DNA from: a virus | Strand: one strand, 5' to 3' | IMG/VR virus record: IMGVR_UViG_3300008267_000013 | Coordinates: 1-64,000 of that record | DNA length: 64,000 nt | Part shown: piece by piece, positions 13,895 through 57,392 of the stretch | Layout of the letters: every line of letters starts with the position of its first letter | How positions within the stretch are numbered: the first letter of the stretch is position 1 | Translations under genes and position numbers: made by a program | The notes under the pieces: model-generated | Told to the model about the DNA's origin: nothing | Database searches by the model: none | Seen by the model: only the letters and a program-made list of their open reading frames with translations

Positions 13895-16318
13895 ATGCTA
13901 GCTTTTACTGGAGTTCAGAAAATGGAAGAGCGTACTAGTACGATTGAAAGTCCTACTTTTGCCGTACAAGGAACAAGATTTCAAGAAGCACTAGCGCAAC
14001 TAATTCTAGATGACTCTGTATTCTCAGCACAAATTGGTGAAGTACTAGATGTTAATTTCTTCGAACTTAAGTATTTAAGGCTATTTACGCAAAAAATTTA
14101 TGATTATCGCAAGAAATATAGCGTGCATCCATCGCGTGAAACAATCGGTACTATCCTAAGGGCTGAAATTAATACAGAATCAGAAGTACTACAGAAACAA
14201 GTACGTGAATATTACGCTCGTATTATTTCAACAGATAATGTCGATGGGGCCGAACACATCAAAGATGTATCTCTTGATTTCTGTAAGAAGCAGAAATTAA
14301 AAGAGGCAATGATTAAGAGCGTTGAGCTTATTAAATCTTCTTCTTTTGATGAAGTTTCAAAGGTAATCAATGACGCACTTAAACTGGGTACAGACAATAA
14401 TCATGGTTATGATTATTTGGCTGATTTTGAAAGCCGCTTCGTCCTTAAAGCACGTAATCCTATTAGTACTGGTTGGGATTATATTGACTCTATCACCCGT
14501 GGTGGCCTTGGGCGAGGTGAATTGGGGGTTGTTATCGCTCCTACTGGCTGTCATAGCCGTGGCACTAGAGTTTTAATGTCTGATGGTGCATTTAAAAACG
14601 TTGAAGACATTGTTGTTGGTGACAAACTACTCGGCCCAGACTCTAACAACAGAAATGTTCTACAGCTACATCGCGGAACACAGATGATGTATAGGGTGGT
14701 CCCCGTTAAAGGCGATTCGTTTGTAGTGAATGCTGGTCATATTTTATCTCTGCGAAACACACAGAACAATAAAATTGTAAACATTAGCGTGTCTGAGTAT
14801 CTCTCTAAGAACAAAAATTTTAAGCACTTGCACAAACTTTATAGAAGCGGCGCTGTTAGTTTTCAGAACTCTCAAAAAATGAATAATGCGTATTTTCTAG
14901 GAATTATGCTTGGAGATGGGTCTGTTACGTCTAAACAAATCTCATTCACGACTGAAGATGAAACCTTGATTAACGAAATTAAAGCAAGCGGAATGATAGA
15001 TGATGCTTTTCAAATTAAAAGTTGGGCCAAGGCTAATTCTTCCTGTAGATCTTATGCCTTAAATTATTCTAAAAATTCTAAGATTTTTAATTTCTTTAAT
15101 GATCTTAAATTGATCGGCACTAATTCTGGCAACAAGTTTATTCCACATAGTTACAAAACAGCCAGTATTTCTGATAGACTAGAGTTGCTTGCTGGGTTAT
15201 TAGATACTGATGGATCTTTAAACGACAAATGTTTTGATTATATTTCTAAATCAAAACAATTATCGGAAGATGTAGCATTTATCGCTAGAAGTGTTGGACT
15301 TGCTGCTTATGTAAATGAATGTGTAAAAACTTGTCAAAACGATTTTTCGGGAACATATCACCGCGTTTCTATTAGTGGTAACTGCTCTATTATTCCAACA
15401 AGGCTTAATAGAAAGAAGGCGGCGGCACGCAAGCAAATTAAAAACGTGCTAAACACTGGTTTTGCCGTTATCGAAGAAGGTGAAGATGATTATTATGGAT
15501 TCGAGGTAGATGGCGATAATCTATACCTTATGGGTGACTTTACTGTTACCCATAATAGTGGTAAATCAATGTGTCTTGTGCATATTGGAGCAGCAGCACT
15601 AAAAGCTGGCAAAAACGTTGTATACTATACCTTAGAGCTCCAAGATAAAGTAATCGGAGCTAGATTTGATAGTTGTTTGACTGGCATAAATCTATCAGAA
15701 GTGATAAACTACAAAGAACAAGTCCTAGACATGGTAAAGGATTTACCAGGAAAGCTCATTATTAAAGAATATCCCACTAAAAGCGCAAGCACTAATACAA
15801 TTAGATCGCACTTAGATAAACTTAAAATGCATGGTCATAACGTTGATATGATTATTGTTGATTATGCGGATCTACTCCGACCAGTTACGCGAGAAAAAGA
15901 GAAACGAGTAGAGCTTGAGAGCATCTATGAAGAGCTTCGCGGCCTAGCGCAGATGAATAATTGTACTCTATGGACGGCTTCGCAAACTAATCGTGGCGGA
16001 CTAAATGCAGAAGTGGTAACAATGGAAAGCATCAGCGAAGCGTTTAACAAGTGTTTCGTAGCAGATTTTATTTGCACAGTTAGTAGAACAATCAAAGACA
16101 AAGCTTCAAACGAAGGACGCATGTTTATTGCCAAGAATCGTAATGGACCAGATGGCATGGTTTATCCAATATTTATGGACACTAAGAACGTAAAAATCAA
16201 GGTCTTGCAAGAAAGCACAGAAAGTGCATCAGAAATCATAGCTAATTCTGCTAAAGATCAACAGAAAGCTCTGAAAGATAAATATCGTGCATTTAAAAAG
16301 GAACAAGGATCTACTTAG
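13895..16318 (+). CDS. dnaB: DnaB/gp41-type replicative helicase interrupted by an intein
   Basis: 807 aa precursor with an in-frame 336-residue intein (residues 219-554), leaving a 471-aa helicase. The extein is DnaB-like: an N-terminal helical domain, then a RecA-fold motor. The P-loop A-P-T-G/S-G-K-S is rebuilt only after splicing. Walker B I-I-V-D-Y-A-D and a later T-A-S-Q-T-N sensor follow. It unwinds DNA 5'-3' at the fork. SD GGAG precedes the ATG. No separate primase or loader is seen in this window. Confidence 0.92.
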   Translation: MLAFTGVQKMEERTSTIESPTFAVQGTRFQEALAQLILDDSVFSAQIGEVLDVNFFELKYLRLFTQKIYDYRKKYSVHPSRETIGTILRAEINTESEVLQKQVREYYARIISTDNVDGAEHIKDVSLDFCKKQKLKEAMIKSVELIKSSSFDEVSKVINDALKLGTDNNHGYDYLADFESRFVLKARNPISTGWDYIDSITRGGLGRGELGVVIAPTGCHSRGTRVLMSDGAFKNVEDIVVGDKLLGPDSNNRNVLQLHRGTQMMYRVVPVKGDSFVVNAGHILSLRNTQNNKIVNISVSEYLSKNKNFKHLHKLYRSGAVSFQNSQKMNNAYFLGIMLGDGSVTSKQISFTTEDETLINEIKASGMIDDAFQIKSWAKANSSCRSYALNYSKNSKIFNFFNDLKLIGTNSGNKFIPHSYKTASISDRLELLAGLLDTDGSLNDKCFDYISKSKQLSEDVAFIARSVGLAAYVNECVKTCQNDFSGTYHRVSISGNCSIIPTRLNRKKAAARKQIKNVLNTGFAVIEEGEDDYYGFEVDGDNLYLMGDFTVTHNSGKSMCLVHIGAAALKAGKNVVYYTLELQDKVIGARFDSCLTGINLSEVINYKEQVLDMVKDLPGKLIIKEYPTKSASTNTIRSHLDKLKMHGHNVDMIIVDYADLLRPVTREKEKRVELESIYEELRGLAQMNNCTLWTASQTNRGGLNAEVVTMESISEAFNKCFVADFICTVSRTIKDKASNEGRMFIAKNRNGPDGMVYPIFMDTKNVKIKVLQESTESASEIIANSAKDQQKALKDKYRAFKKEQGST
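14549..15556 (+). mobile_element. Intein with LAGLIDADG endonuclease in helicase Walker A
   Basis: Begins with Cys (C-H-S-R-G-T-R-V, splicing block A) and ends H-N before a +1 Ser, within the helicase P-loop. Two LAGLIDADG-type blocks are present (L-G-I-M-L-G-D-G and L-A-G-L-L-D-T-D-G), so the homing endonuclease appears complete. Block F/G near the end reads Y-G-F-E-V-D-G-D...T-V-T-H-N. The +1 nucleophile is Ser. Insertion in the P-loop makes helicase activity depend on splicing. Confidence 0.93.
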
Positions 16319-17071: not shown

Positions 17072-18031
17072 ATGCCAAATCTACTAGAGCCAAGAGTAAC
17101 ATACGGACCTTTCGAGTACCAACCTGCATATGATTTTTTTTTAAAACAACAAATGGCTCATTGGCTCTTTATAGAAGTACAGATGGGTGGCGACGTTAAT
17201 GATTGGAAGTTAAACCTATCTGAAACAGATAGACACGTGATTGGAAGCATTCTCAAAGGATTTACACAGACAGAAATCTTTGTTGAGGATTATTGGTCCA
17301 ACAAAGTTGGTAATTGGTTCAAGAAACCTGAAATTCAAATGATGGCAAATACATTTGCCGGATTTGAAAGTATCCATGCTGCTGGATACTCATATCTTGA
17401 AGAATCACTTGGTATTCAAAATTACGAGTCATTTCTACATGACCCAGCCTCAAAAGCTAAGATCGACAGATTGATGAACACCAAGGGCAAAACCAAAAGA
17501 GAGATTGGTCTATCATTAGCAATATTCTCAGGCTTCAACGAAGGCGTAAATCTTTTTAGTTCATTTGCTGTTCTTATGTCATTTTCACAACGCAATATGC
17601 TTAAAGGACTTGGTCAAATTGTTAGCTGGTCCATCAAAGATGAATCATTACATAGTGAAGCTGGATGCTGGTTATTTCGTACATTTATGTCAGAACACCC
17701 AGAACTATGGACAGATGACTTTAAAAAAGAAATTTATGATGCTGCTCGCCTAACAGTTGAACTTGAAGATCAATTTATTGAAACTGCTTTTGCTAAAGGT
17801 GATCTACCAAATCTTTCCAAGCATGACTTAAAAAATTATATTCGTTATCGTGCAAATACTAAACTTCACGATCTTGGACTAAAACAAAATTGGAAGAACA
17901 TTGACAAAACCTCCCTTGAGAGGTTAGAATGGTTTGACGTTCTCTCCAGTGGTGTTGAAATGCAGGACTTTTTTGCACAGAAGGTTTCGGCGTACTCCAA
18001 AGGAATGGCTGATTTTGAGAATGTTTGGTAA
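17072..18031 (+). CDS. nrdB: Ribonucleotide reductase class Ia, beta subunit
   Basis: 319 aa. Diiron ligands are visible in F-E-S-I-H-A-A-G-Y-S, where E-x2-H-x3-Y gives the Glu, His and radical Tyr. Others are in T-E-I-F-V-E-D-Y, F-N-E-G-V-N and K-D-E-S-L-H. The protein holds the tyrosyl radical that starts NDP reduction in NrdA. It is shorter than E. coli NrdB (376 aa) but the catalytic core is complete. SD precedes ATG 17072. It is adjacent to the split nrdA. Confidence 0.93.
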   Translation: MPNLLEPRVTYGPFEYQPAYDFFLKQQMAHWLFIEVQMGGDVNDWKLNLSETDRHVIGSILKGFTQTEIFVEDYWSNKVGNWFKKPEIQMMANTFAGFESIHAAGYSYLEESLGIQNYESFLHDPASKAKIDRLMNTKGKTKREIGLSLAIFSGFNEGVNLFSSFAVLMSFSQRNMLKGLGQIVSWSIKDESLHSEAGCWLFRTFMSEHPELWTDDFKKEIYDAARLTVELEDQFIETAFAKGDLPNLSKHDLKNYIRYRANTKLHDLGLKQNWKNIDKTSLERLEWFDVLSSGVEMQDFFAQKVSAYSKGMADFENVW

Positions 18032-18042
18032 AGGATAAAAAT

Positions 18043-19161
18043 ATGACTCTTGAGGAACTAAAAGAAAAAGGCGAAGCTGGAGAATGGTTAAACTCTGAAG
18101 GGTTTCAAACTTTGTCCAGTGGCTATCTATTAAAAGGGGAAACCCCATTAGATATGTACAAACGTGTAGCTAAATCAGCTGCATCATATTATGATGAACC
18201 ATTACGTTCTCAATTAGAGAAAAGGTTCCTATCATATATTAAAAATAATTGGCTATGCTTGGCTACGCCTGTTGCCTCAAACTGCGGCAGCGACCGTGGA
18301 CTACCTATTTCATGCTATGGAAATTATATGCCAGATAGTATTTCTGGTATTTTTAAAACATATCATGAAGCTGCCATGTTAACAAAAAATGGTGGCGGTG
18401 TTGGAACATATATTGGTGGTATTCGTGCTAGAGGAGCTTCTATTAACGGTAATGGTCAAAGTGAAGGTGTAATACCTTGGTTAAGAGTATTGGAACAAAC
18501 ATTCCAGAGTGTTGGTCAGGGTGGAGTTAGACGAGGAGCTGTAGCAACTTATCTAGATGCTGACCATGGCGATATTGATGAGTTTATTGATATCCGCCGA
18601 CCAACTGGGGATATTTCGAGGCGTTGTCTCTCTAATAATTTCCATCATGCAGTCGTATATTCAGACGATTTTATGAATCGTGCATTAACTGGTGATAAGC
18701 ATGCTCGCGAGGTATGGGAAAAAGGTCTAAAAGCTCGTCTTGAGACTGGAGAACATTATATGATGTTCGGTGATAACGCTAATCGTAACTTACCGGACGG
18801 ATATATTAAAAATGATTTAAAAGTTAAAACAAGCCAGCTTTGCGTAGCTGGTGAGACTTTAATTACTGTATCAAGCAAAGATTTTGGTATAGTGGATTTA
18901 GAAATTAAAGACCTAAAACCATATATGGATAAACATAAAGATCTTTCTGTTTTATCTAACAATCTGGAAAATAGAAAAAATGAATTTAAAAAAGTTAAGG
19001 CATTTGCTCAGACTTCGCCAAAAGCAAAAGTATTAAAAATTACTGACGACAAAACAGGTAAATGTATTAAAGTAACGCCAGAACACAAAGTCTATACCAA
19101 AAATAGAGGATATGTTATGGCTAAAGATCTTAAAGCAGATGATGAATTAGTTTTTGAATAG
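18043..19161 (+). CDS. nrdA: NrdA N-terminal part fused to N-half of a split intein
   Basis: 372 aa from the ATG with SD AAGGAT. An upstream ATG at 18025 overlaps nrdB and is less likely. The first 266 aa are the NrdA N-extein, with P-V-A-S-N-C-G (redox-active Cys) and N-G-G-G-V-G. It lacks an ATP-cone, so overall activity regulation by dATP is probably absent. The last 106 aa are an intein N-fragment ending at a normal stop. NrdA therefore needs protein trans-splicing with the product of 20196-21230. Confidence 0.93.
   Translation: MTLEELKEKGEAGEWLNSEGFQTLSSGYLLKGETPLDMYKRVAKSAASYYDEPLRSQLEKRFLSYIKNNWLCLATPVASNCGSDRGLPISCYGNYMPDSISGIFKTYHEAAMLTKNGGGVGTYIGGIRARGASINGNGQSEGVIPWLRVLEQTFQSVGQGGVRRGAVATYLDADHGDIDEFIDIRRPTGDISRRCLSNNFHHAVVYSDDFMNRALTGDKHAREVWEKGLKARLETGEHYMMFGDNANRNLPDGYIKNDLKVKTSQLCVAGETLITVSSKDFGIVDLEIKDLKPYMDKHKDLSVLSNNLENRKNEFKKVKAFAQTSPKAKVLKITDDKTGKCIKVTPEHKVYTKNRGYVMAKDLKADDELVFE
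18841..19158 (+). mobile_element. Split intein, N-fragment (106 aa)
   Basis: Starts with Cys in C-V-A-G-E-T-L-I-T-V (block A) and contains block B T-P-E-H near residue 82. It ends with a stop after the A-K-D-L-K-A-D-D-E-L-V-F segment. No endonuclease domain is present in the fragment. Confidence 0.92.
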
Positions 19162-19169
19162 ATAAAAAT

Positions 19170-19227
19170 CCAGTAGAGTAATCTCGTTTAGTAACTAATT
19201 ATATTATCGAGATTACTCTACTGGAGG
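19170..19227 (+). promoter_or_regulatory. 17-bp perfect inverted repeat masking the SD of the endonuclease
   Basis: CCAGTAGAGTAATCTCG (19170-19186) is exactly complementary to 19208-19224. The right arm runs into the SD GGAGG (19223-19227). The 21-nt loop contains ACTAATTATA, a possible internal promoter element. Long transcripts would hide the SD, while RNAs started in the loop would not. Confidence 0.75.
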
Positions 19228-19234
19228 TTATACA

Positions 19235-20212
19235 ATGGAATGGAAAATCTATAAAATAACAAATTTGATAAATAATAAAATTTATATAGGTCAGACAAAA
19301 AACTCTATAAATGAAAGATTTAAAGGACATTGTACAGCTGCCAGACAAGGTATAAAATATAGATTTTATTATGCAATAAGAAAACATGGCGAAGAAAATT
19401 TTAAAATAGAACTTCTAGAAATAGCAAATTCAATAGAGGAAGCCTGTGAACTAGAAAAGAACTACATTAAAAAATATCAATCAACTCATCCGAGCATTGG
19501 ATATAACGCTACCAGTGGAGGCACAGGTGGTTGGATGATCGGAAGACTATCTGAAGAAGAACAAAATTTATGGAAAGATAAAGTTTCTAAAGCTAATACA
19601 GGCGAGAACAATTCTACATATTGCGGTACAACTGATGAAGAATTAATAAATTTATTAGTAAAATTTACTGAAAAATACAAATATATATGTGGTTTGCTAC
19701 CGCTGGTAGGGTTTGGGATAGAAAATGGTATAGATGTTCCCAAATCATTTACAAAGTTTAGATTTGATGGGAACTATGAAAATTTAGTTAAAGAAGTTGA
19801 ATTAAGAACTGGTATTAAGGCTGATGCGTATCCAAGAGGTGAAGAAAGAAAAATATCATCATATTATAAAAAACTTTCTTATCAAAAATCGTACAAAAGA
19901 AAACCAAAAATTAAAATAAAATACGAAGACATGATCAAAAACATTAGTAATTCTAAAAAATATGATAAAAATCCGCAATTTTGTGGAACAACCAATGAAA
20001 CACTAATAGAATTAGTAGAAAAATTCTATAAAGAATTTAATAAATTTCCAACACACAAAGAATTAATACTTTATGGGAAACATGAAAATATAAATGTTCC
20101 AACCGGGTTTACAGAAAGTAGATTTGGAGGAAAATTTATAAATTTAATTAAAATTGTAAATTTAAAGTATAATTTAAGCAAACCGGAGGCCGATAATGGC
20201 ACTGATAATTGA
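19235..20212 (+). CDS. GIY-YIG homing endonuclease between the split nrdA halves
   Basis: 325 aa. The N-terminal GIY-YIG domain reads K-I-Y-K-I-T...I-Y-I-G-Q-T, with R-F-K-G-H following. After it come two related repeats beginning with C-G-T-T-(D/N)-E. The second copy is fuller and includes F-P-T-H-K-E-L and F-G-G-K-F. These repeats look like a DNA-recognition module. Its 3' end overlaps the start of the intein C-fragment gene by 17 bp and contains that gene's SD (GGAGG). Confidence 0.9.
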   Translation: MEWKIYKITNLINNKIYIGQTKNSINERFKGHCTAARQGIKYRFYYAIRKHGEENFKIELLEIANSIEEACELEKNYIKKYQSTHPSIGYNATSGGTGGWMIGRLSEEEQNLWKDKVSKANTGENNSTYCGTTDEELINLLVKFTEKYKYICGLLPLVGFGIENGIDVPKSFTKFRFDGNYENLVKEVELRTGIKADAYPRGEERKISSYYKKLSYQKSYKRKPKIKIKYEDMIKNISNSKKYDKNPQFCGTTNETLIELVEKFYKEFNKFPTHKELILYGKHENINVPTGFTESRFGGKFINLIKIVNLKYNLSKPEADNGTDN

Positions 20213-20297
20213 AGAAATGGAAGAAGAAATTCCAGTATACGATATAACGGTGGAAGATAATCACAATTTTTATGCAAATGGCATTCTAGTACATAAC
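20196..20297 (+). mobile_element. Split intein, C-fragment (34 aa)
   Basis: Block F V-Y-D-I-T-V-E-D-N-H-N-F and block G I-L-V-H-N end at the junction with the +1 Cys (20298). Length and motifs are those of known naturally split inteins. Confidence 0.92.
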
Positions 20298-21230
20298 TGT
20301 TCGGAAATCTTTCTCTTCAACGATCAAGATCATACATTTGTTTGTTGCTTATCAAGCGTAAATCTTGCACGATACGATGAGTGGAAAAATGATCCACTAT
20401 TCCTAAAAGACTGTATCTATTTTCTAGATGGAATCATGGAAGAATTTATTCGCAAAGCACGTAAGATTGAAGGATTTGAGAAGGCTGTAAGATTCTCAGA
20501 AAAAAGTCGCGCACTTGGTCTTGGCGCTCTTGGATGGCACACCCTGTTGCAATCAAAACTAATTCCATTTGATTCATATCAAGCAATGATGCTGAATGCA
20601 GAAATCTTCCGCAAGATGGATCGTCTAACACTAGAAGCTTCAAAAGAATTAGCAGTATTAAAAGGGGTACCAGAATGGTGCATGGATACACGTAACAGTC
20701 ACCGATTAGCAATTGCACCAACTGTGTCTAATTCATTAATCTCAGGCGGTGTAAGCCAAGGGGTTGAACCTATTATTGCTAATTATTACGCTCAAAAAAC
20801 TGCAAAAGGTTCTTTTATCAGAAAAAATCCTGCACTTGAAGTACTACTTAAATCAAAAGGTCTAGATAGTTTTGATACATGGCAACAAATAAATGCAGAT
20901 GGCGGCAGTGTAAGAAATGTTAAAGGCTTGAGTGATCTTGAGAAAGAAGTGTTCTTGACCGCAAGAGAGATCAACCAACATACTATTATCAAGCAGGCTG
21001 CACAACGTCAAAAGTTTATTGATCAAGGACAAAGTATCAATCTATTCTTTACAACCCCAGCATCACTAAATTCTGATGACAAGAAGAAACTAGGCAAGTA
21101 CATTCACGAAGTGCATCTAGAGGCCTGGAAACAGGGTCTAAAGAGCCTATACTACCTACGTGGTGAGTCAGTCCTTAAATCAGATAGTGTCTATCGTAGT
21201 AGCGGTGAATGTAAGGCTTGTGAAGGATAA
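20196..21230 (+). CDS. nrdA: Split intein C-fragment fused to NrdA C-terminal part
   Basis: 344 aa. Residues 1-34 are the intein C-fragment, and residues 35-344 are the NrdA C-extein (310 aa). The joined NrdA would be 576 aa, well under E. coli NrdA (761 aa). The +1 Cys of the extein (C-S-E-I) aligns with the thiyl-radical cysteine of class I NrdA (C439 in E. coli). A second active-site Cys follows in C-C-L-S-S-V-N. The Y-Y pair for radical transfer is in S-L-Y-Y-L-R, and a C-terminal C-x2-C (E-C-K-A-C-E-G) handles re-reduction. Splicing is required to build the active site. Confidence 0.93.
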   Translation: MALIIEEMEEEIPVYDITVEDNHNFYANGILVHNCSEIFLFNDQDHTFVCCLSSVNLARYDEWKNDPLFLKDCIYFLDGIMEEFIRKARKIEGFEKAVRFSEKSRALGLGALGWHTLLQSKLIPFDSYQAMMLNAEIFRKMDRLTLEASKELAVLKGVPEWCMDTRNSHRLAIAPTVSNSLISGGVSQGVEPIIANYYAQKTAKGSFIRKNPALEVLLKSKGLDSFDTWQQINADGGSVRNVKGLSDLEKEVFLTAREINQHTIIKQAAQRQKFIDQGQSINLFFTTPASLNSDDKKKLGKYIHEVHLEAWKQGLKSLYYLRGESVLKSDSVYRSSGECKACEG

Positions 21231-33587: not shown

Positions 33588-33988
33588 TGGGTGCTGTCAA
33601 AAATAGAAGGAATAGGCACGCTAAAAAGCGAGCAGAGCAGCGTTACAATGTATTACTTAATCGTGAAGATCGTAGGGTTATAGCAGCTAAAATTCGTGAT
33701 AATAACTCTATTTTTATTGGCAGGACCACAAGTACAAAATCTATTCATCTAGTAAAATACAAAGATGAAGAGTATATAGCAGTATACAGTTCTTCTACCA
33801 ACTGTCTTGTTACGTTTTTACCAAAAGATTGTAGAATCTACAAGCAATACTTAGAATCTAAGGCGGCACAAAATGAATCGAAAACAACGCCGACAGCTGA
33901 AAAAGCTAGCAGGCGAAAAAGCAACATCGACAATAGATTTGATGTTGAATATGCCGAGCGAATGCTCAGTCTGCCAGAATCCATATGA
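33587..33988 (+). CDS. Basic protein with N-terminal H-A-K-K-R-A motif
   Basis: 133 aa. The N-terminus N-R-R-N-R-H-A-K-K-R-A-E-Q-R-Y is very basic and could bind nucleic acid. A beta-rich middle follows. The start overlaps the dUTPase stop. Its 3' end overlaps the next gene by 116 bp, so the C-terminal third may be under constraint from two frames. Function unknown. Confidence 0.6.
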   Translation: MGAVKNRRNRHAKKRAEQRYNVLLNREDRRVIAAKIRDNNSIFIGRTTSTKSIHLVKYKDEEYIAVYSSSTNCLVTFLPKDCRIYKQYLESKAAQNESKTTPTAEKASRRKSNIDNRFDVEYAERMLSLPESI

Positions 33989-34094
33989 TAAAACTAATCG
34001 AGAAATGGCAATGACATGGTTTGTTGAAGTCTATAACAGTCAAAAAATAGTTAAATTAACCTGCCCAGAATGCCACAATAAAAACAATGGATGA
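33873..34094 (+). CDS. Zinc-ribbon protein starting M-N-R-K-Q-R-R
   Basis: 73 aa. A basic start, then C-S-V-C (about residue 31) and C-P-E-C (about 64) around W-F-V-E-V and V-K-L-T. I know this layout from many phages as a zinc-ribbon protein of unknown role. SD AAGGCGG is in place, and the frame overlaps the upstream gene by 116 bp. Confidence 0.7.
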   Translation: MNRKQRRQLKKLAGEKATSTIDLMLNMPSECSVCQNPYDKTNREMAMTWFVEVYNSQKIVKLTCPECHNKNNG

Positions 34095-34407
34095 ATACGG
34101 TACATCAAAAAAGAAATATGTATTCCATGACCATGACCATCTCCATGCGAAGTTGGTTGTTAAACTTATGGAAGATGGTATAAAGCAGGGCATTCTCTTT
34201 AGAGAGTTTTTAAAGGCTTATTCAGAGGATAACCCTGATATACGTAAGTGGGTTGAAAATAATCCAAATATGAAAATTAGCAATCGTTCGATGGCTAAAA
34301 GAAAGATGCAACAACGAAAGCTTGAGTTGATAAATAAAAAGTTTAACCTTGATCAAAAAGAGGTTGATGAAATATTTGACATCCTAGCGGATGAATTTGG
34401 TGATTAA
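34087..34407 (+). CDS. Unknown helical protein
   Basis: 106 aa, highly charged, with a His-rich N-terminal H-D-H-D-H-L-H that might bind metal. The C-terminal half is helical (D-Q-K-E-V-D-E-I-F-D-I-L). Overlaps both neighbours (by 8 bp and 1 bp). Function unknown. Confidence 0.65.
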   Translation: MDEYGTSKKKYVFHDHDHLHAKLVVKLMEDGIKQGILFREFLKAYSEDNPDIRKWVENNPNMKISNRSMAKRKMQQRKLELINKKFNLDQKEVDEIFDILADEFGD

Positions 34408-34655
34408 TGGACTATTTAGGATGTACGGATCAATGTCGAAAAGATAAATGCCCATGCAGCAGAGAAGCGTGCCGGCATTGGATGGATTACAAAGAAGATT
34501 TAAATTGTAGTGTTATAGCGGCTGAAGATCATGGACCTATGACACTTGAGGAAGTCAGTAAAAGAATTGGTTTAACTCTTGTACGCGTTAAACAAATTGA
34601 AGATGCGGCAATGAATAAGATGAAAAAAAGAATTTTGCCAATACTTCATGAATAA
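34407..34655 (+). CDS. Mini sigma-70 region 4-like HTH protein
   Basis: 82 aa. Residues 45-78 (M-T-L-E-E-V-S-K-R-I-G-L-T, then V-R-V-K-Q-I-E-D-A-A) match the region 4.2 helix-turn-helix of sigma-70, including the R-V-x-Q-I-E recognition helix. The N-terminal third has five Cys in C-x3-C, C-x-C and C-R-H spacing, possibly a zinc site. No other sigma regions are present. It could bind RNA polymerase beta-flap or -35 DNA as a phage transcription switch, comparable in principle with T4 gp55/AsiA-type factors. Confidence 0.75.
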   Translation: MDYLGCTDQCRKDKCPCSREACRHWMDYKEDLNCSVIAAEDHGPMTLEEVSKRIGLTLVRVKQIEDAAMNKMKKRILPILHE

Positions 34656-34679
34656 TTTTTTACTTTTGAGGTAGTAGAT

Positions 34680-34689
34680 ACTATTTATT
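34680..34689 (+). promoter_or_regulatory. ACTATTTATT motif, possible phage promoter element
   Basis: One of several intergenic copies of A-C-T-A-(A/T)-T-T-A-T, here in an 82-bp AT-rich gap before the acidic core-like gene, which has SD TAGGAG. See the finding on this motif. Confidence 0.4.
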
Positions 34690-34737: not shown

Positions 34738-35496
34738 ATGGCTGATAAGAAATTACTAGAAGAGGCAACTATTCGCAGATTCATGAAACTAGCGAATATT
34801 GCTCCAACTGAGAAAGGCGTACTAACTGAAGGTACCATGAAAGTTAAACTATCCGGTCAAGAACCAGCTGGTGGCCGTGCTGCGTTCCCAATGGCTAGCC
34901 AAGGTGTACGTGGTCCAGTACGCGAAGAAGCTGAAGAGGAAATGAAAAAAGAAGGTTGGATGAAAGAAGCCGACGAAGAAGAAGCCGCTCCAGAAGCTGA
35001 TGCAGCTGATATGGGCGACATGGCAGGCGACGATATGGGCGCCCCAGCGGAAGGGGGTGATCTAGAGTCTGCTGTTGCAAGCGTTGTTGATGCATTAAAT
35101 GGTCTACTAGCTGCTGCGGGTATGGAAGATAAAGAAGTAGAACTAGACTCTGGATCAGAAGAAGGTGGCGAAGAAGCTGCTGGTATGGAAGATGAAATGG
35201 CTGCTCCAATGGCCGAAGCCAAAGAAGAAGAAGAAAAAGAAGGTAAAAAAGAAGAAGAGGAAGAAGAACTAGAAGAAAGCATTGAACTAGTTGACGACAC
35301 TCTTATCGAGAAACTTGTACAACGCGTATCAGCTCGTCTAGTTGCTGAAGCTCGCAAACAAAAAGATGCTAAACTAGCCGAAGCTAAAAAAGGCGGCGCT
35401 GGTAACTGGCTAGCCAAGCCAAAACACTCCAAGCCACCAAAAGCCAAAGGTAACCCAACCAAAGGTGGCACTCCATTCAAGGGTGGAAAGAAATAG
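34738..35496 (+). CDS. Acidic, Ala/Glu-rich core or scaffold-like protein
   Basis: 252 aa, extremely rich in Glu, Ala and Gly in the middle, with a basic Gly/Lys/Pro C-terminus. The N-terminus E-A-T-I-R-R-F-M-K-L-A-N-I resembles the tags of neighbouring proteins and has L-x-E sites suited to a prohead protease. A strong terminator follows, so it is expressed as a defined unit. It is a good candidate for a prohead core or internal head protein, but there is no family match I can name. Confidence 0.65.
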   Translation: MADKKLLEEATIRRFMKLANIAPTEKGVLTEGTMKVKLSGQEPAGGRAAFPMASQGVRGPVREEAEEEMKKEGWMKEADEEEAAPEADAADMGDMAGDDMGAPAEGGDLESAVASVVDALNGLLAAAGMEDKEVELDSGSEEGGEEAAGMEDEMAAPMAEAKEEEEKEGKKEEEEEELEESIELVDDTLIEKLVQRVSARLVAEARKQKDAKLAEAKKGGAGNWLAKPKHSKPPKAKGNPTKGGTPFKGGKK

Positions 35497-36422: not shown

Positions 36423-36725
36423 ATGAGGCCAACTGCTTGGAAGCTTTATGAATCTAATGATTGTGTTACCTACAGGATTCAATTTGATGAAGTACCTTGG
36501 AAGTTCAAGAAAGCATTGCATGAAGCTATGAAAGATTGGAAATCTGGTCCATATGGTTGGCATAAAACAACTGGTAACCAACTATATACGTTTAGTAAAG
36601 AATTTAAGAATCTGGAAGACTGGACGCAATGGGCCGAATCATTCCCTATCCAGATAACCGAGAAGCGTGTGTGGGGCGACCGGGAAAAAATCATTCTACA
36701 CGGAAAGAAGACAAAAAATGGCTAG
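36423..36725 (+). CDS. Small Trp-rich unknown protein
   Basis: 100 aa from the ATG 1 bp after the upstream stop. Seven Trp residues and an alternating beta/alpha pattern. It overlaps the start of the ClpP-like gene by 8 bp. Function unknown. Confidence 0.6.
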   Translation: MRPTAWKLYESNDCVTYRIQFDEVPWKFKKALHEAMKDWKSGPYGWHKTTGNQLYTFSKEFKNLEDWTQWAESFPIQITEKRVWGDREKIILHGKKTKNG

Positions 36726-37386
36726 AATCACAAAGAAGAGCAAGATCTCAGGTGAACAAGAAATTGCTGTTGAAGAGGATGAATCCGGAAACCTAATTAT
36801 TATGCAGCCACCAGCTGCTCCAGAGGTTAAGTTTCGTAAAATTGGTTTAATTGGCGATGTTGACGAAGAGAAAAGCGCGGACATTATTCAGTCTCTATAT
36901 GCACTCAAAGAAATGGGTAGAATCGAAATCCCTCCTGCTACTAAGCGAAGCAAGCCAAAGATCTCCTATGATCCAATCGATTTTATCATCTCGACTCACG
37001 GTGGAAGTGCTAGTGATATGTTTGCGATGTACGATGTGATGCGTGATGTACGCTCAGATGGCTGCGAAATCCACACTTTTGGTGTTGGTAAGGTTATGAG
37101 TGCAGGTGTGTTGCTTCTAGCTGCTGGAACAAAAGGTGAGCGTAAAATTGGTAAGCATTGCCGTGTTATGATGCACTCAGTTATTGGTGGTAACAGCGGC
37201 CCAATCTTTAATCTTGAGAACGAGATGAAAGAAGTACGCGCAACTCAAGAACGTTATATTCAAGCTCTTAAATCAGAAACAAAAATGTCCATTAAACAGA
37301 TTAATAATTTCTTTAATCGCCATGTTGATATCTATTTATCGGCTGAAGAAGCAGTTAAATTAGGAATTGCTGACATTGTAGTTTAA
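36718..37386 (+). CDS. clpP: ClpP-like serine protease
   Basis: 222 aa. S-T-H-G-G-S-A-S-D (oxyanion/Gly loop) is present. The nucleophile is in G-K-V-M-S-A-G-V-L-L-L-A-A-G, the His in R-V-M-M-H-S, and the Asp is probably in the A-D-I-V C-terminus or nearby. The N-terminal 40 residues are a phage-specific extension. ClpP with a host Clp ATPase degrades proteins. In phages the same fold also acts as prohead protease. It precedes tagged putative internal proteins, which could be its substrates. Confidence 0.85.
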   Translation: MARITKKSKISGEQEIAVEEDESGNLIIMQPPAAPEVKFRKIGLIGDVDEEKSADIIQSLYALKEMGRIEIPPATKRSKPKISYDPIDFIISTHGGSASDMFAMYDVMRDVRSDGCEIHTFGVGKVMSAGVLLLAAGTKGERKIGKHCRVMMHSVIGGNSGPIFNLENEMKEVRATQERYIQALKSETKMSIKQINNFFNRHVDIYLSAEEAVKLGIADIVV

Positions 37387-51774: not shown

Positions 51775-52002
51775 ATGTATAATACAGGTGATATTCTAGA
51801 AAGAATTATAATAAGTAACATAGATAGAATGAATCCTATATTTAGAGATGACAATATACATTTCTTGATAGTTGATAAAAGAGAATATTTTCTAGAAGTA
51901 TCTGGCAAGTGTGCAGTTATTTACACACTTATGTCACTAAAGACCAATCAACATCACACAATCAGTTTGAGAGATACACGTAATTGGAAAAAAGTAGCAT
52001 AA
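51775..52002 (+). CDS. GDI-family protein 2
   Basis: 75 aa. T-G-D-I-L-E-R, then H-F-L-I-V, Y-T-L-M-S-L and the ending W-K-K-V-A. It shows the full family pattern. Confidence 0.7.
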   Translation: MYNTGDILERIIISNIDRMNPIFRDDNIHFLIVDKREYFLEVSGKCAVIYTLMSLKTNQHHTISLRDTRNWKKVA

Positions 52003-52018
52003 TAGGTGACACCATGAG

Positions 52019-52228
52019 ATGGAGCAGGAAGAAAAGATAAACGGAGTTGGCGATATAATAGTAGAATGTTATATGAATAGCGTTCGCGGCGAGCAACATT
52101 ATATTATAATAGATCAAAACTATTATCAATATGAATTACTGCCACTAAATGCAGCCAATAAAGATTATCAATCATCGTTCCTGTTATTAAAAAGTACGGT
52201 TGTCATGTATTATATAAGAGTCGCTTAA
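52019..52228 (+). CDS. GDI-family protein 3
   Basis: 69 aa. V-G-D-I-I-V-E, H-Y-I-I-I, ending I-R-V-A. The stop TAA overlaps the next ATG (TTAATG). Confidence 0.66.
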   Translation: MEQEEKINGVGDIIVECYMNSVRGEQHYIIIDQNYYQYELLPLNAANKDYQSSFLLLKSTVVMYYIRVA

Positions 52229-52617
52229 TGAGATATAACATAGGAGATGTTATAGAAGCAGATTATGTATCGCATAAGCAAATATATTACATTAAAGATA
52301 TAATAGCAGATGAATACATACTAAGAACAATAGATGGTGATTTACAAAGAGATCTTCATTGTCTGCTAACAAATGTTAGCAATATAACGTACAAAAAGGT
52401 TGATATGTCGCTTACTAAAGATATGATGATATCAGTAGATTCAGAAATTCAATATTATAGCAACCAAGAACTAATTACTTATAATATATCATATACTGAA
52501 TTAAACAATAAATATCCTAATTCTTATTTTAAATACAGAGTAGATCGTAGTACAGAAGAGCTATTAACCAGAGGATTAGAACCATCTGATGCCAGTAAAA
52601 GCAGAGGTGATAGTTAA
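52228..52617 (+). CDS. GDI-family protein 4, extended
   Basis: 129 aa. I-G-D-V-I-E-A starts the barrel, which ends near Y-K-K-V at residue 55. A further 70 residues of unknown type follow, perhaps a fusion with a second unit that lost its start. Overlaps the next gene by 29 bp. Confidence 0.62.
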   Translation: MRYNIGDVIEADYVSHKQIYYIKDIIADEYILRTIDGDLQRDLHCLLTNVSNITYKKVDMSLTKDMMISVDSEIQYYSNQELITYNISYTELNNKYPNSYFKYRVDRSTEELLTRGLEPSDASKSRGDS

Positions 52618-52792
52618 TGTAGGTGATATTATTAAAGTAAAGAGTGCTGAAACAGAATTCAGTGGCCTCTACCTAGTATTAGAAATAAAATCAACTCAAG
52701 GAATAAAAATATATAATCTGCAGGATCTAAGATTCCCAGACACATTCTGGACTTTTTTTAGCGATGATGATATATTGGAAATACTGGCGTAA
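52589..52792 (+). CDS. GDI-family protein 5
   Basis: 67 aa. V-G-D-I-I-K-V, L-Y-L-V-L, ending I-L-A. It starts inside the previous gene. Confidence 0.62.
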   Translation: MPVKAEVIVNVGDIIKVKSAETEFSGLYLVLEIKSTQGIKIYNLQDLRFPDTFWTFFSDDDILEILA

Positions 52793-52795
52793 AAA

Positions 52796-53032
52796 ATGAT
52801 GCCTTCACACGATAGATTAAGAGAAGTAAGATACGATGTGGGCGATCTTGTCAAACGTTATAATATGCTTGACTCGGATAAAGAGGCCACATCATGCGTA
52901 TATTTAATACTAGCTGTAAATATCGATGAAGAAGGTTGGGTCTGGTACTACTGCTACAGTTTCGGATCAGGTACATATCGTGAATTTTTGATGGATGATA
53001 ATTCCGCTCGTAAATATGTTAAATTAGCGTAG
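52796..53032 (+). CDS. GDI-family protein 6
   Basis: 78 aa. V-G-D-L-V-K-R, V-Y-L-I-L, Y-Y-C-Y-S and the ending Y-V-K-L-A. ATGATG start 3 bp after the upstream stop. Confidence 0.66.
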   Translation: MMPSHDRLREVRYDVGDLVKRYNMLDSDKEATSCVYLILAVNIDEEGWVWYYCYSFGSGTYREFLMDDNSARKYVKLA

Positions 53033-53044
53033 AAAAGAGGACAT

Positions 53045-53260
53045 ATGCGTAAATTTAAAGATGGTGATAAGGTATCTGTTAAATCGTGTGAAGAATTAGA
53101 GATGCCATGCAGCGTTGAGGGTCTTGATGATTGGATTCCAAAATTAACCTCTTTGGATGGTCGTACTATTTATATGTATAAAGTAACTGGTCGTCACGCA
53201 AAGCGCGGTAATGCAGTATCGGTTCGCGTATCAGAAAGTCAATTAGAACTTTGGAGTTAA
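53045..53260 (+). CDS. Small barrel-like protein in the array
   Basis: 71 aa with SD AGAGG. D-G-D-K-V-S-V replaces G-D-I, and it lacks the K-V-A end. It is more like a KOW/SH3 domain and may be a distant member. Confidence 0.6.
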   Translation: MRKFKDGDKVSVKSCEELEMPCSVEGLDDWIPKLTSLDGRTIYMYKVTGRHAKRGNAVSVRVSESQLELWS

Positions 53261-53261
53261 T

Positions 53262-53447
53262 ATGAAAAGTTTTGAGTTGGGTGATATTGTACATGATTTT
53301 GAATATGACCAATATTATCTAATCACACACATTAAACAATCAGATACATATAAGTACCTGTATTCATTGATGGATTTAGAAGATTCATCAAGAGTTATAG
53401 GGGCATCACTAGCAAATCTTAAAAAATTATACAAGAAGGTAGCATAA
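53262..53447 (+). CDS. GDI-family protein 8
   Basis: 61 aa, one of the shortest complete units. L-G-D-I-V-H-D, Y-Y-L-I-T, ending Y-K-K-V-A, encoded by AAG-AAG-GTA-GCA. Confidence 0.68.
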   Translation: MKSFELGDIVHDFEYDQYYLITHIKQSDTYKYLYSLMDLEDSSRVIGASLANLKKLYKKVA

Positions 53448-53448
53448 A

Positions 53449-53604
53449 ATGAGCTCCGAAAGATGGATAAGATTGATATTATCATCCATAGTTGGAGCAA
53501 CTGCTTATGTAATTATAGCAGTTATATACACGCATTATAAAACTCACGATAAATATACGGTCTATAATAAGTCGCCGCTAACAATAGGGCCGTATAAAAA
53601 ATGA
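53449..53604 (+). CDS. 51-aa single-TM protein
   Basis: ATG 1 bp after the upstream stop. The segment S-I-V-G-A-T-A-Y-V-I-I-A-V-I-Y is a TM helix after a basic start, with a polar C-terminus probably outside the cytoplasm. Its TGA overlaps the next ATG. It is an insertion in the GDI array. Function unknown. Confidence 0.58.
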   Translation: MSSERWIRLILSSIVGATAYVIIAVIYTHYKTHDKYTVYNKSPLTIGPYKK

Positions 53605-53822
53605 GCAACGAGCGAATATTTAAGCCGGGGGATATAATAAAGTATATACCAGACAAAGATAGCAAGATAAAAGAAGCCTTTGAACAGGAACTATATATAG
53701 TTATATCAGCTGGTCCTTATATATTTGAAGAGGGTTTCCAAATGGTTGAAAAAATGCATCTGATATCTGGTGTTATACAGATGCGTCCCATAATGATTAA
53801 TAGATGGGAAATATTGGCTTGA
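53601..53822 (+). CDS. GDI-family protein 9
   Basis: 73 aa. P-G-D-I-I-K-Y, L-Y-I-V-I, ending W-E-I-L-A. Both ends overlap neighbours (ATGA, TTGA). Confidence 0.66.
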   Translation: MSNERIFKPGDIIKYIPDKDSKIKEAFEQELYIVISAGPYIFEEGFQMVEKMHLISGVIQMRPIMINRWEILA

Positions 53823-53995
53823 AGTTTAGAGTAGGTGATATAATAAGAGCAATCAATAAATCAACTGGTATATATGTTCACTTCCTAATTTATAGGATTG
53901 AAAAGTGGCACTATGTAGCTTACTGTATTGAAGATGGTATGCCAAGCGTATCAATCAGTCCAATATACGATAATGATTTTGAAAAGGTTGCTTAG
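53819..53995 (+). CDS. GDI-family protein 10 (TTG start)
   Basis: 58 aa. K-F-R-V-G-D-I-I-R, H-F-L-I-Y, ending F-E-K-V-A. The TTG overlaps the upstream TGA, as at 51580. No closer ATG exists. Confidence 0.62.
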   Translation: MKFRVGDIIRAINKSTGIYVHFLIYRIEKWHYVAYCIEDGMPSVSISPIYDNDFEKVA

Positions 53996-54016
53996 ATCAG
54001 TAAGTTGTGCTATAGT
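53988..54016 (+). promoter_or_regulatory. Sigma-70-like promoter
   Basis: TTGCTT (53988-53993), 17 bp, TATAGT (54011-54016), 30 bp before the TM protein gene. The -35 overlaps the K-V-A codons of the previous gene. Confidence 0.55.
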
Positions 54017-54046
54017 ATTTAAACTAACTAACTCAAGGAGGAAAAT

Positions 54047-54271
54047 ATGAGCAAAGTTAGCATCGTACTAAGTATTGCCGTTGGATTGTGGTCAGCGACT
54101 GCTCTTGGAGTCGGTACCGCATGGTTGTTCAGTAGAACTAGACCAGTACAAGTTGTAAGACTCGACAATAACTGTGTAACTGTTCAGCAGGGTATGTTTC
54201 ACCGACTAGAATGTTATAACAGCAATGTTCCACCTCATGATCCCGTGGAACAGATTGGTTATGCAGAGTAA
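54047..54271 (+). CDS. Single-TM protein with Cys-containing tail
   Basis: 74 aa with SD AAGGAGG. Residues 4-28 are hydrophobic (I-V-L-S-I-A-V-G-L-W), followed by a polar tail with two Cys. It has its own promoter and a perfect terminator. Topology suggests the tail faces the periplasm. Function unknown. Confidence 0.62.
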   Translation: MSKVSIVLSIAVGLWSATALGVGTAWLFSRTRPVQVVRLDNNCVTVQQGMFHRLECYNSNVPPHDPVEQIGYAE

Positions 54272-54297
54272 TAATAAATAGATATAGCCAATTCAGC

Positions 54298-54326
54298 GGC
54301 TGGTGTGTGAACACCAGCCGTTTTTA
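54298..54326 (+). terminator. Intrinsic terminator
   Basis: CGGCTGGTG pairs perfectly with CACCAGCCG around a TGTGAA loop, followed by five T. It ends the TM-protein transcript and is followed by a new promoter. Confidence 0.92.
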
Positions 54327-54334
54327 TTATCTGC

Positions 54335-54363
54335 TTGACAACAAACATACGTTGACCTATACT
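54335..54363 (+). promoter_or_regulatory. Sigma-70 promoter giving a leaderless mRNA
   Basis: TTGACA (54335-54340), 17 bp, TATACT (54358-54363). The ATG at 54373 is 9 nt after the -10, within 2-3 nt of the expected start of transcription. No SD. Confidence 0.78.
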
Positions 54364-54372
54364 ATCAACACG

Positions 54373-54600
54373 ATGGATACACCACAGGTTGGCGACATAT
54401 GGAAGAACAACTGGTCAAGTAACCTCAACACACATAATTGCGGCGAAACTCACTACCTATTGATAAAGAAGGTAGAGCCCGACAACTCCAAGGATACAAA
54501 GTGGGTAGCATTTTCTTATAAGAGATATAAGGAAGTACTCATCTATATTGATAACTATTCAAATGAGATAGTTACAAATAGTTTCACAAGGGTATCTTGA
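54373..54600 (+). CDS. GDI-family protein 11 (leaderless)
   Basis: 75 aa. V-G-D-I-W-K-N, H-Y-L-L-I, ending T-R-V-S. The longer upstream frame would include the promoter, so this ATG is chosen. Confidence 0.7.
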   Translation: MDTPQVGDIWKNNWSSNLNTHNCGETHYLLIKKVEPDNSKDTKWVAFSYKRYKEVLIYIDNYSNEIVTNSFTRVS

Positions 54601-54601
54601 T

Positions 54602-54784
54602 ATGCTATCATCAACTATAGAACCTGGTGACATCTGGAAGAATGATAACTCACAATTCCATAATATCATTATTGAACCCGACATCGTAAACCCTTGGTGG
54701 ATTACATGGGTTATTGAATTGGGCGAATATAATCTCTATCATAAAGATGATTTTGATATGCGTTGGTGGAGGAAAGTAGCATGA
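54602..54784 (+). CDS. GDI-family protein 12
   Basis: 60 aa. P-G-D-I-W-K-N, H-N-I-I-I, ending W-W-R-K-V-A. The start motif is nearly the same as in protein 11, so they are probable sister copies. The stop overlaps the next ATG. Confidence 0.68.
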   Translation: MLSSTIEPGDIWKNDNSQFHNIIIEPDIVNPWWITWVIELGEYNLYHKDDFDMRWWRKVA

Positions 54785-54984
54785 GTAGCAGAGACGCAAA
54801 GTGGGATGTTGGCGATATTATCAGAGAAGAATGGGGTGACGAATCAAGGCATTTCCTAATAATGAGTGTATGTTTGTGGGAAACAAGTATTGATACTTAT
54901 GAGTGTCGTGTTTTAGAGACAGGACAAACCATGAACATAACTCCACATTATAGTCCACCAAACATGTTGAGAAAAGTCGCATGA
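54781..54984 (+). CDS. GDI-family protein 13
   Basis: 67 aa from the ATGA overlap. V-G-D-I-I-R-E, H-F-L-I-M, Y-E-C-R-V-L-E-T-G, ending L-R-K-V-A. Confidence 0.7.
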   Translation: MSSRDAKWDVGDIIREEWGDESRHFLIMSVCLWETSIDTYECRVLETGQTMNITPHYSPPNMLRKVA

Positions 54985-55205
54985 GGACTCTTAAATTCAG
55001 CATCGGAGATATCATAACACGCGGCAAGCCACACCATGATATGTTCAAAGATAATTGGCGTAAGTTCTATCTTATACATGATATAATCTATGAAGAAGAG
55101 CAAAAAGAATATAGATATTGTTTATACAGTTTCCAAACAGGTTCTTGGAGCGGCTATTTCCCAGCAGGTGAACTTGTAGAACCTTTTCTATTCAAGGTAG
55201 CCTAA
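54981..55205 (+). CDS. GDI-family protein 14
   Basis: 74 aa. I-G-D-I-I-T-R, F-Y-L-I-H, Y-R-Y-C-L-Y-S-F-Q-T-G, ending F-K-V-A. Stop CCTAATG overlaps the next start. Confidence 0.7.
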   Translation: MRTLKFSIGDIITRGKPHHDMFKDNWRKFYLIHDIIYEEEQKEYRYCLYSFQTGSWSGYFPAGELVEPFLFKVA

Positions 55206-55360
55206 TGAATCCACAAGTTGGTGACATATGGAAGATAGGAGATCACTATCATTATCTTGTCTTAGAAGAGAGACTTGACTACTGGGGGGAGAAGCAGTAT
55301 TATATGTACATCCTTGAGAGAGACATGTACGACTGCCTCTCATTAGATTTAATAGAGTGA
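55205..55360 (+). CDS. GDI-family protein 15, shortened by TGA
   Basis: 51 aa. V-G-D-I-W-K-I, H-Y-L-V-L, ending at TGA. The eight codons after the TGA read W-N-G-T-K-V-V-stop in the same frame, like the usual family ending (W-x-x-x-K-V-A). The TGA probably replaced a TGG (Trp) codon. Confidence 0.6.
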   Translation: MNPQVGDIWKIGDHYHYLVLEERLDYWGEKQYYMYILERDMYDCLSLDLIE

Positions 55361-55384
55361 TGGAATGGTACAAAAGTGGTGTAA

Positions 55385-55594
55385 ATGTCTAAACCTCATC
55401 AAGTTGGTGATGTTGTCATGGTTGAAAATGACTGGATTGCTTATGAGAATGGTAGTTTGGTTTACGAAACAGGACAAAATCATTATCTTATACTTGAACG
55501 CTGCGATTATACCTGTACCTATACAACGATTCATCTGCAAAGCGGCAAGCATATCCTTACAAGTATGTTAGATAACGCAACAAAGGTCGCCTAA
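55385..55594 (+). CDS. GDI-family protein 16
   Basis: 69 aa. V-G-D-V-V-M-V, H-Y-L-I-L, ending T-K-V-A encoded by AAG-GTC-GCC before TAATG. Confidence 0.68.
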   Translation: MSKPHQVGDVVMVENDWIAYENGSLVYETGQNHYLILERCDYTCTYTTIHLQSGKHILTSMLDNATKVA

Positions 55595-55830
55595 TGGAAC
55601 TCAAGAATATCCTACTTCTCGATAAAAACAAGAAAGTGTATTATACACATTATGAAGTTGGAGATATTCTTAGACACGAAGCAGAAATTAGTGCTCATTA
55701 TCTGGTAGAAGATATACGCGTAGAAGATAATCTTGGAGTTTACTCGCTTAGAGTTCTTGAAAATAACGATATCTTTTCATGGGACGTAGAAATAGTAGAT
55801 AAAGCCCGCAAAATCAAGAGGGTCGCATGA
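55594..55830 (+). CDS. GDI-family protein 17
   Basis: 78 aa. A longer N-terminal lead precedes V-G-D-I-L-R-H. H-Y-L-V-E, ending K-R-V-A. Stop overlaps the next start. Confidence 0.68.
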   Translation: MELKNILLLDKNKKVYYTHYEVGDILRHEAEISAHYLVEDIRVEDNLGVYSLRVLENNDIFSWDVEIVDKARKIKRVA

Positions 55831-56027
55831 TGGAACACCAATACGAGCCCGGTGATATTCTTGCAGTTGATGAACCTTGGTCCAATGAAACATTTTATTA
55901 CTTGATAGAGGGTGAGCTTGATTCTGTTCATGCGTACATGGAATTAATGTATCCTTACCGCTGTCTAAGTGATGGCAAGACAGGATGGGGTAAATTCAAT
56001 GCGCCTTCAACAAGGAAAGTCGCATGA
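55827..56027 (+). CDS. GDI-family protein 18
   Basis: 66 aa. P-G-D-I-L-A-V, Y-Y-L-I-E, L-S-D-G-K, ending T-R-K-V-A. Confidence 0.68.
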   Translation: MMEHQYEPGDILAVDEPWSNETFYYLIEGELDSVHAYMELMYPYRCLSDGKTGWGKFNAPSTRKVA

Positions 56028-56209
56028 TGAATATGTTCCAAATAGGTGATATAGTAAAATGTACAACTACTAACATGATAGAACACATGCTCATACTTGA
56101 CACACAACCAGACTACTGGTATATTGTCCTGTGTCTAGAATCCGGCTTTACAAAAACACATAAGATGTGGCCGAATCAAATCCCAAGAGTATATATGAAG
56201 GTCGCATGA
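56024..56209 (+). CDS. GDI-family protein 19
   Basis: 61 aa. I-G-D-I-V-K-C, H-M-L-I-L, L-C-L-E-S-G, ending M-K-V-A. Confidence 0.68.
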   Translation: MMNMFQIGDIVKCTTTNMIEHMLILDTQPDYWYIVLCLESGFTKTHKMWPNQIPRVYMKVA

Positions 56210-56412
56210 TGTTTAAAACCAAGTATCAGATTGGCGACATTATCGAGGGTAGTCACATACCTGGCGCAAAAATACACCTGCTAATTGAAAACATTACCTA
56301 TATGGGCAAGAAGCCATTTGAGTATTGTGTACGGAATCTTGAAGAAGATTTGATATATGAAAAGTCAGTAGAAAGAACCGATAAAAGTCTTTATTACAAC
56401 AAGGTTGGCTAG
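56206..56412 (+). CDS. GDI-family protein 20
   Basis: 68 aa from the ATGA overlap. I-G-D-I-I-E-G, H-L-L-I-E, ending N-K-V-G. Its stop TAG runs directly into the promoter of the next unit. Confidence 0.68.
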   Translation: MMFKTKYQIGDIIEGSHIPGAKIHLLIENITYMGKKPFEYCVRNLEEDLIYEKSVERTDKSLYYNKVG

Positions 56413-56413
56413 C

Positions 56414-56442
56414 TTGACAACCCTAACCTCTTGCGCTACTAT
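56414..56442 (+). promoter_or_regulatory. Sigma-70 promoter giving a leaderless mRNA
   Basis: TTGACA (56414-56419), 17 bp, TACTAT (56437-56442), then 6 nt to ATG 56449. No SD. Confidence 0.72.
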
Positions 56443-56448
56443 ACAACC

Positions 56449-56673
56449 ATGACGCCACGATACGAACCCGGCGATATCCTTCACCATTCAGGTATGGAAG
56501 GTATTGAGTTTTATTGTTTGGTGATGGACGTTGAGACCGTATCAAACTGTATTATAAACGGTAACTACGAACATCGTAGAATTTATACTCTTCTTTGTAT
56601 GGATGACGGAGAAGTGTATAGATTCAATACAGCAAACATTGATTGTAGTGTTTATTATAGGAAGGTTGCGTAG
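56449..56673 (+). CDS. GDI-family protein 21 (leaderless)
   Basis: 74 aa. P-G-D-I-L-H-H, F-Y-C-L-V-M, L-C-M-D-D-G-E, ending Y-R-K-V-A. First copy of the tandem duplication. Confidence 0.72.
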   Translation: MTPRYEPGDILHHSGMEGIEFYCLVMDVETVSNCIINGNYEHRRIYTLLCMDDGEVYRFNTANIDCSVYYRKVA

Positions 56674-56674
56674 C

Positions 56675-56703
56675 TTGACAACCATCACTTCTTGAGGCAC
56701 TAT
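56675..56703 (+). promoter_or_regulatory. Sigma-70 promoter giving a leaderless mRNA
   Basis: TTGACA (56675-56680), 17 bp, CACTAT (56698-56703), then 6 nt to ATG 56710. Copy of the element at 56414. Confidence 0.7.
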
Positions 56704-56709
56704 ACAACC

Positions 56710-57331: not shown

Positions 57332-57392
57332 TTTAAAAAACGAATAGGTAGAAGAAGTAGGAGGACGGGGGGGTCACAAAACCAAAGAAGGT

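Follow-up and report, generated by a model that had tools for sequence, protein, structure and literature searches.

A lone sigma-70 region 4.2 domain with a cysteine module in uncultured large phages: a candidate accessory regulator of transcription

Introduction

What does a phage do with a single DNA-binding domain of a sigma factor, encoded on its own between its replication and head genes? The question is raised by an 82-aa gene, mini-sigma4 (positions 34407-34655, plus strand), in a 64,000-nucleotide stretch of viral DNA (hereafter the window), which corresponds to positions 1-64000 of an 87,792-base IMG/VR virus record that may itself be a fragment. An earlier sequence-only reading called its product a “mini sigma factor” that could redirect host RNA polymerase or co-activate ACTA(A/T)TTATA promoters. 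Comparing the gene, its neighbors and the promoter behind it across related virus records, we favor, with a probability of about one half, an accessory phage transcription regulator in which a region 4.2 helix-turn-helix (HTH) and a Cys metal module form a DNA-binding protein that acts on RNA polymerase promoters.

Results

Broadly, the ORF was confirmed exactly as first described, through its Pfam match, family alignments and an AlphaFold2 model. Residues 42-74 match positions 18-50 of the 50-position Pfam Sigma70_r4 profile (E 4.3e-8; 33 bits for a Pfam cut-off of 24.1), which places the region 4.2 HTH at 34530-34628 (plus strand), and a family profile compared with solved sigma factors in the PDB aligned over residues 37-77 only, i.e., region 4.2 (E 1e-6). 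Pfam gives Sigma70_r4 alone for the 82-aa protein, which lacks region 2, and Sigma70_r2 had no match anywhere in the 87.8-kb source record; the initial description of a convincing region 4.2 with no other sigma region was thus borne out. The AlphaFold2 model, built from 67 sequences (mean pLDDT 90.8, pTM 0.70), has helices at residues 4-13, 35-42, 47-54 and 58-80. Sigma region 4 chains headed both lists of structural matches, with weak scores (best Foldseek E 1.2; VIA Z 3.2, rmsd 3.1, 46 aligned) as expected for a domain of only ~40 residues.

A single-query search of IMG/VR retrieved 19 relatives, and an alignment-based search 215 loci. No cellular relative appeared when the genomes of 84,980 prokaryotic species (bacteria and archaea) were scanned for the conserved pattern, the consensus had zero matches in 50,697 phage records, and the window's protein had no full-length match among isolated phages. 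PHROG matches were weak (phrog_7241, E 0.0024, and phrog_8, E 0.022, both regulators and both obtained with the relative L040). Evolutionarily, dN/dS ranged from 0.01 to 0.12 for close pairs where it was computable (synonymous changes had reached saturation in a few pairs), which corresponds to strong purifying selection. Together with the 215 loci and the constant neighbors described below, this places the ORF beyond chance, and on sequence grounds mini-sigma4 is a genuine new family of uncultured large phages. With a lone region 4.2 HTH joined to a cysteine module, its architecture is compact; it is not clearly covered by any PHROG family and was not found in isolated-phage records.

The gene holds a fixed operon position between replication and head genes. 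The conserved block comprises DNA polymerase III alpha, dUTPase, a zinc-ribbon-like protein and IMP dehydrogenase, followed by c1, mini-sigma4, an acidic protein, a small protein, a ClpP-like head protease and GroEL. On the plus strand of the window these include the zinc-ribbon-like small protein (33873-34094, pattern CxxC...CPEC, counterpart of cluster 6), the 106-aa c1 directly upstream of mini-sigma4 (34087-34407), the acidic protein downstream (34738-35496, cluster 5, with a LNExTIRRFMKLANI-type N-terminus, on the head-gene side of the block) and the ClpP-like head maturation protease (36667-37386, phrog_94 E 1.3e-17); IMP dehydrogenase was not found in this window, and Rfam gave no RNA family between 30 and 42 kb. 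The c1 stop overlaps the mini-sigma4 ATG by 1 nt in the window (TAATG), the usual overlap among relatives being 4 nt (ATGA). As for frequencies, c1 is the immediate upstream neighbor in 62 of 67 non-redundant mini-sigma4 loci (for most of the remaining five, greedy ORF calling probably passed over c1 in favor of an antisense ORF), and the cluster 5 acidic protein is the +1 or +2 neighbor in 50 of the 67. At one locus (L280:2814-3524) a QueC-like ORF (VLWSGGFDSTYV) lies between c1 and an intact mini-sigma4.

The N-terminus of a relative's c1 (L079) matches NikA-like ribbon-helix-helix (RHH) proteins with an E of 1e-4, which falls short of the Pfam cut-off, so that an RHH-like identity is suggestive only, and a PDB sequence search with the c1 profile returned nothing useful. 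The C-terminal tail is conserved (type FxLxxxExExIFDxL), and c1 shares a tail of type LxxxExExIFDLL with the small protein whose gene directly follows that of the gp55-like sigma discussed below (window c1, 34087-34407; L222:1977-2294; genes after gp55-like in L123-L202), which may point to a common partner, e.g., the sliding clamp, RNA polymerase or terminase. This recurring tail and the adjoining head genes would suit a role outside transcription, near head assembly or packaging, with mini-sigma4 working alongside c1 as a DNA adaptor that binds metal. The tail, however, belongs to c1 rather than mini-sigma4, whose closest matches in sequence, like the leading ones in structure, are to sigma region 4, and we regard such a role as very unlikely.

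Elsewhere in the window, a split intein seems to interrupt the ribonucleotide reductase large subunit (18025-21230), whose halves flank a GIY-YIG-like endonuclease ORF (19235-20212), and Pfam places an intein with a LAGLIDADG endonuclease in the DnaB helicase (13895-16318). An array of many small ORFs of 60-80 aa (51775-57331 and 62431-62807), with “GDI” near the start and a K(V/L)A ending, forms an expanded family. Gene strand switches near 57.4 kb, G+C climbs from ~0.35 to 0.46 over 56000-64000, and on the minus strand an AAA ATPase (58686-59747) adjoins a DUF2201 metallopeptidase/VWA protein (59967-61139).

The N-terminal cysteine module spans residues 1-34 of mini-sigma4 (C6, C10, C17, C22 and C34; codons for residues 6-34 at 34422-34508, plus strand), the sigma70 match beginning at about residue 37, and includes the motif W25-x2-Y28-x2-D31-x-N33-C34. 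The Cys-rich N-terminus noted from the single sequence holds across the family: each of 67 non-redundant relatives has C6, C17, C22 and C34, and the same is true of Y28, D31, N33 and R53. C10 is present in 60; the other seven all have C20 instead and look like a single lineage, so that the replacement may have been one event (L012, outside the 67-member set, lacks both). This matching of C10 loss by C20 gain argues that the cysteines are ligands, and with four invariant cysteines and a fifth that has moved, a metal site in this module is likely.

For the recognition helix we take the residue correspondence with sigma70 from the alignment and from general knowledge of that protein. Mini-sigma4 keeps residues matching R586, R588 (as K) and Q589, and conservation across its family is strong at R53, R60, K62, Q63 and K71. 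Hydrophobic residues (mostly F/Y/L/I and V) occupy the places of R584 and E585, from which we expect a specificity different from TTGACA. The cysteine module takes the place of region 4.1, which in sigma70 touches the beta flap together with residues close by (PMC2988021).

This helix admits other readings. Its exposed hydrophobic positions make it conceivable that the HTH face might bind protein rather than DNA, which counts against a regulator, as does the fact that stand-alone HTHs can also serve non-transcription roles. One version is an anti-host factor: mini-sigma4 would occupy the beta flap, or the partner surface of host sigma region 4, and shut off host -35-dependent promoters without specific DNA binding. 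Phage proteins do act at these places, AsiA on sigma70 region 4 (PMC2988021) and gp33 on the flap tip (PMC7892883), and the recognition helix lacks base-reading residues equivalent to R584 and E585. Yet the conserved R53, R60, K62, Q63 and K71 suit DNA contact, and the gene lies where replication and head genes meet, with no obvious place among early genes for host takeover; we consider this reading unlikely. A bolder reading, and something of a long shot, is that mini-sigma4 is an exchangeable region 4 module that, on the polymerase, ousts the region-4-like domain of the phage gp55-type sigma (or that of the host sigma) from the beta flap, giving a different upstream specificity with metal replacing region 4.1, in which case the cysteine-bound metal would possibly make it a metal or redox switch.

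Which promoters could be concerned? Directly behind mini-sigma4, on the plus strand, the window carries an upstream element ACTTTTG (34662-34668; clade consensus ~GCTTTTTA) and a late-type -10 element ACTATTTATT (34680-34689), the promoter of the next gene. Most relatives have ACTATTTA between mini-sigma4 and the next gene, and this conservation indicates that the ACTA(A/T)TTATA-type promoter class first noted in the window is real. The upstream element lies at -19 to -12 from the ACTATTTA motif with fixed spacing, its TTT being present in 72 of 78 non-redundant promoters behind mini-sigma4 vs. 17 and 15 when the counting window was moved farther upstream. It is these relatives that make the motif convincing rather than the count in the window, where ACTAWTTATA with one mismatch occurs 38 times vs. 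27.6 expected, a weak over-representation (5 of 100 shuffles as high). Bipartite late promoters of this kind (~GCTTTTTA, fixed spacer, ACTATTTATT) were seen clade-wide (window, 34662-34689; G003, G008, G018 and G019), unlike T4 late promoters, which have no conserved -35 sequence (PMC7892883). A k-mer enrichment upstream of genes in five records returned mainly Shine-Dalgarno words, CTTGACA (a host-like -35) and ACTATTTA, along with AT-rich words and a repeat in G008; nothing in it was evidently special to mini-sigma4 carriers, and it yielded no target motif.

A separate gp55-like sigma is encoded by the same phages. It was detected in all nine mini-sigma4-carrying relative records of at least 130 kb (phrog_234, E 1e-4 to 5e-9), far from mini-sigma4 in these records, and was not found in the window's own 87.8-kb record; IMG/VR holds at least 563 such loci (including L102-L109, L111 and L123-L202). 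T4 gp55 pairs a region 2 homology domain with a clamp-binding tail. It is shorter than the clade's protein (~235 aa), whose conserved C-terminal domain has three helices. The AlphaFold model of the latter (pLDDT 81, pTM 0.44) matches sigma region 2 (sigmaE 4lup, Z 8.7, rmsd 2.8, 91 residues) and can be aligned from one end to the other with sigmas of two domains (e.g., sigmaE 1or7, Z 8.7, model residues 19-232), the overall rmsd being high because the domain arrangement differs. The gp55-like sigma thus appears to have region 2 plus a region-4-like domain, a call that comes from the model, since sequence searches did not show region 4 and a PDB sequence search with its profile gave nothing useful. 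Comparison of mini-sigma4 with this protein by hhalign found no similarity. The label “mini sigma factor” therefore survives for region 4.2 and fails for the rest: mini-sigma4 has no region 2, and it coexists with a separate sigma that appears to have its own region-4-like C-terminal domain.

The two proteins could still divide the work, the gp55-like sigma reading the -10 element ACTATTTA and mini-sigma4, on the beta flap, reading the upstream CTTTT element. Such a split late sigma would account for the gp55-like gene in nine of nine large carrier records and for the bipartite promoter with fixed spacing directly behind mini-sigma4, and it would suit the lack of a T4 gp33 homologue (phrog_254 had no match at E <= 1 in 12 records). 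Against it stand the predicted region-4-like domain of the gp55-like sigma itself and, above all, the relatives that naturally lack mini-sigma4.

At 12 of 83 c1 loci the gene is absent and c1 is followed directly by the acidic-protein gene (contig-end truncations L259 and L276 and the displaced copy L280 were left out of this count). The upstream element was found at 8 of 9 non-redundant loci without mini-sigma4 and at 72 of 78 with it (Fisher p = 0.55), and it keeps its position and spacing when the gene is missing. Over whole records, 13 of 22 ACTATTTA promoters in carriers (G000, G003, G008) and 15 of 22 in non-carriers (G018, G019) have the element (p = 0.75), for a pooled 28 of 44 vs. 16 of 88 control windows (p = 4e-7). 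Three non-carrier records, which may be incomplete, hold no mini-sigma4 and no other Sigma70_r4 match (G018, 172 kb; G019, 136 kb; G024, 111 kb). A split late sigma seems to us quite improbable.

Equal frequency with and without the gene identifies the upstream element as a property of the clade independent of mini-sigma4, and it is plausible that the C-terminal domain of the gp55-like sigma reads it. Two earlier ideas were abandoned: a Fisher test against other ACTATTTA sites had pointed to an element peculiar to the promoter that follows mini-sigma4, whereas the whole-record count showed it to be general in the clade, and mini-sigma4 as the required reader of the CTTTT element was dropped after three with/without comparisons. 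The same frequencies speak against the proposal that ACTA(A/T)TTATA promoters need mini-sigma4 as co-activator; as far as this comparison can show, it seems dispensable for ACTATTTA promoters. The other role first suggested, redirection of host RNA polymerase, is conceivable. As a separate observation, G035, whose c1 locus lacks mini-sigma4, has a different and weaker Sigma70_r4 match in a 205-aa frame (L308, 97856-97951, E 8.6e-5, below the Pfam cut-off).

Discussion

With promoters unchanged at loci that lack the gene, mini-sigma4 is better seen as an accessory than as the missing promoter reader, and the accessory regulator that we favor fits both its coexistence with a complete gp55-like sigma and its absence from those 12 c1 loci. 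In such a regulator, a Cys-coordinated N-terminal module (probably zinc, possibly iron-sulfur) would stand in for region 4.1 and hold the region 4.2 HTH, which would bind DNA at or near the -35 of some promoters and alter the use of host RNA polymerase there, together with host sigma or the phage gp55-like sigma. Its co-expression with the RHH-like c1 would place this action where replication genes give way to head genes. That the protein binds metal and DNA, acts on promoters and contacts RNA polymerase is in each case our inference. If mini-sigma4 does act on RNA polymerase, it would show one sigma domain reused as a separate, optional regulator.

Mini-sigma4 has its region 4.2 HTH (residues 37-77) in common with region 4 of primary sigma-70 factors such as E. 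coli RpoD and Taq SigA, but it lacks regions 1-3, has a Cys module for region 4.1 and carries hydrophobic equivalents of R584/E585. RinA and ArpU of Gram-positive phages are likewise small stand-alone sigma-like HTH regulators near late genes; mini-sigma4, in contrast, has no clear PHROG family, and the Cys module is peculiar to its own family. Sigma activity is divided between proteins in Bacillus SigO (YvrI)/RsoA, whereas in this clade the partner gp55-like sigma is predicted to have its own region-4-like domain.

The T4 late co-activator gp33 (phrog_254), which sits on the beta flap, resembles mini-sigma4 as a small separate protein beside a gp55-type sigma. However, gp33 alone does not bind DNA (PMC7892883) and mini-sigma4 is an HTH, with no sliding-clamp motif seen at its C-terminus in this comparison. 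In T4 middle activation by MotA/AsiA, a phage factor is expected at -30/-35, as for mini-sigma4, and the GCTTTT-like element of the clade's late promoters lies where the MotA box, with its GCTT center, sits in T4 middle promoters (PMC2988021); this element, however, occurs independently of mini-sigma4. The comparison thereby exposes a clade of large uncultured phages with an apparently two-domain late sigma and late promoters that carry an upstream element.
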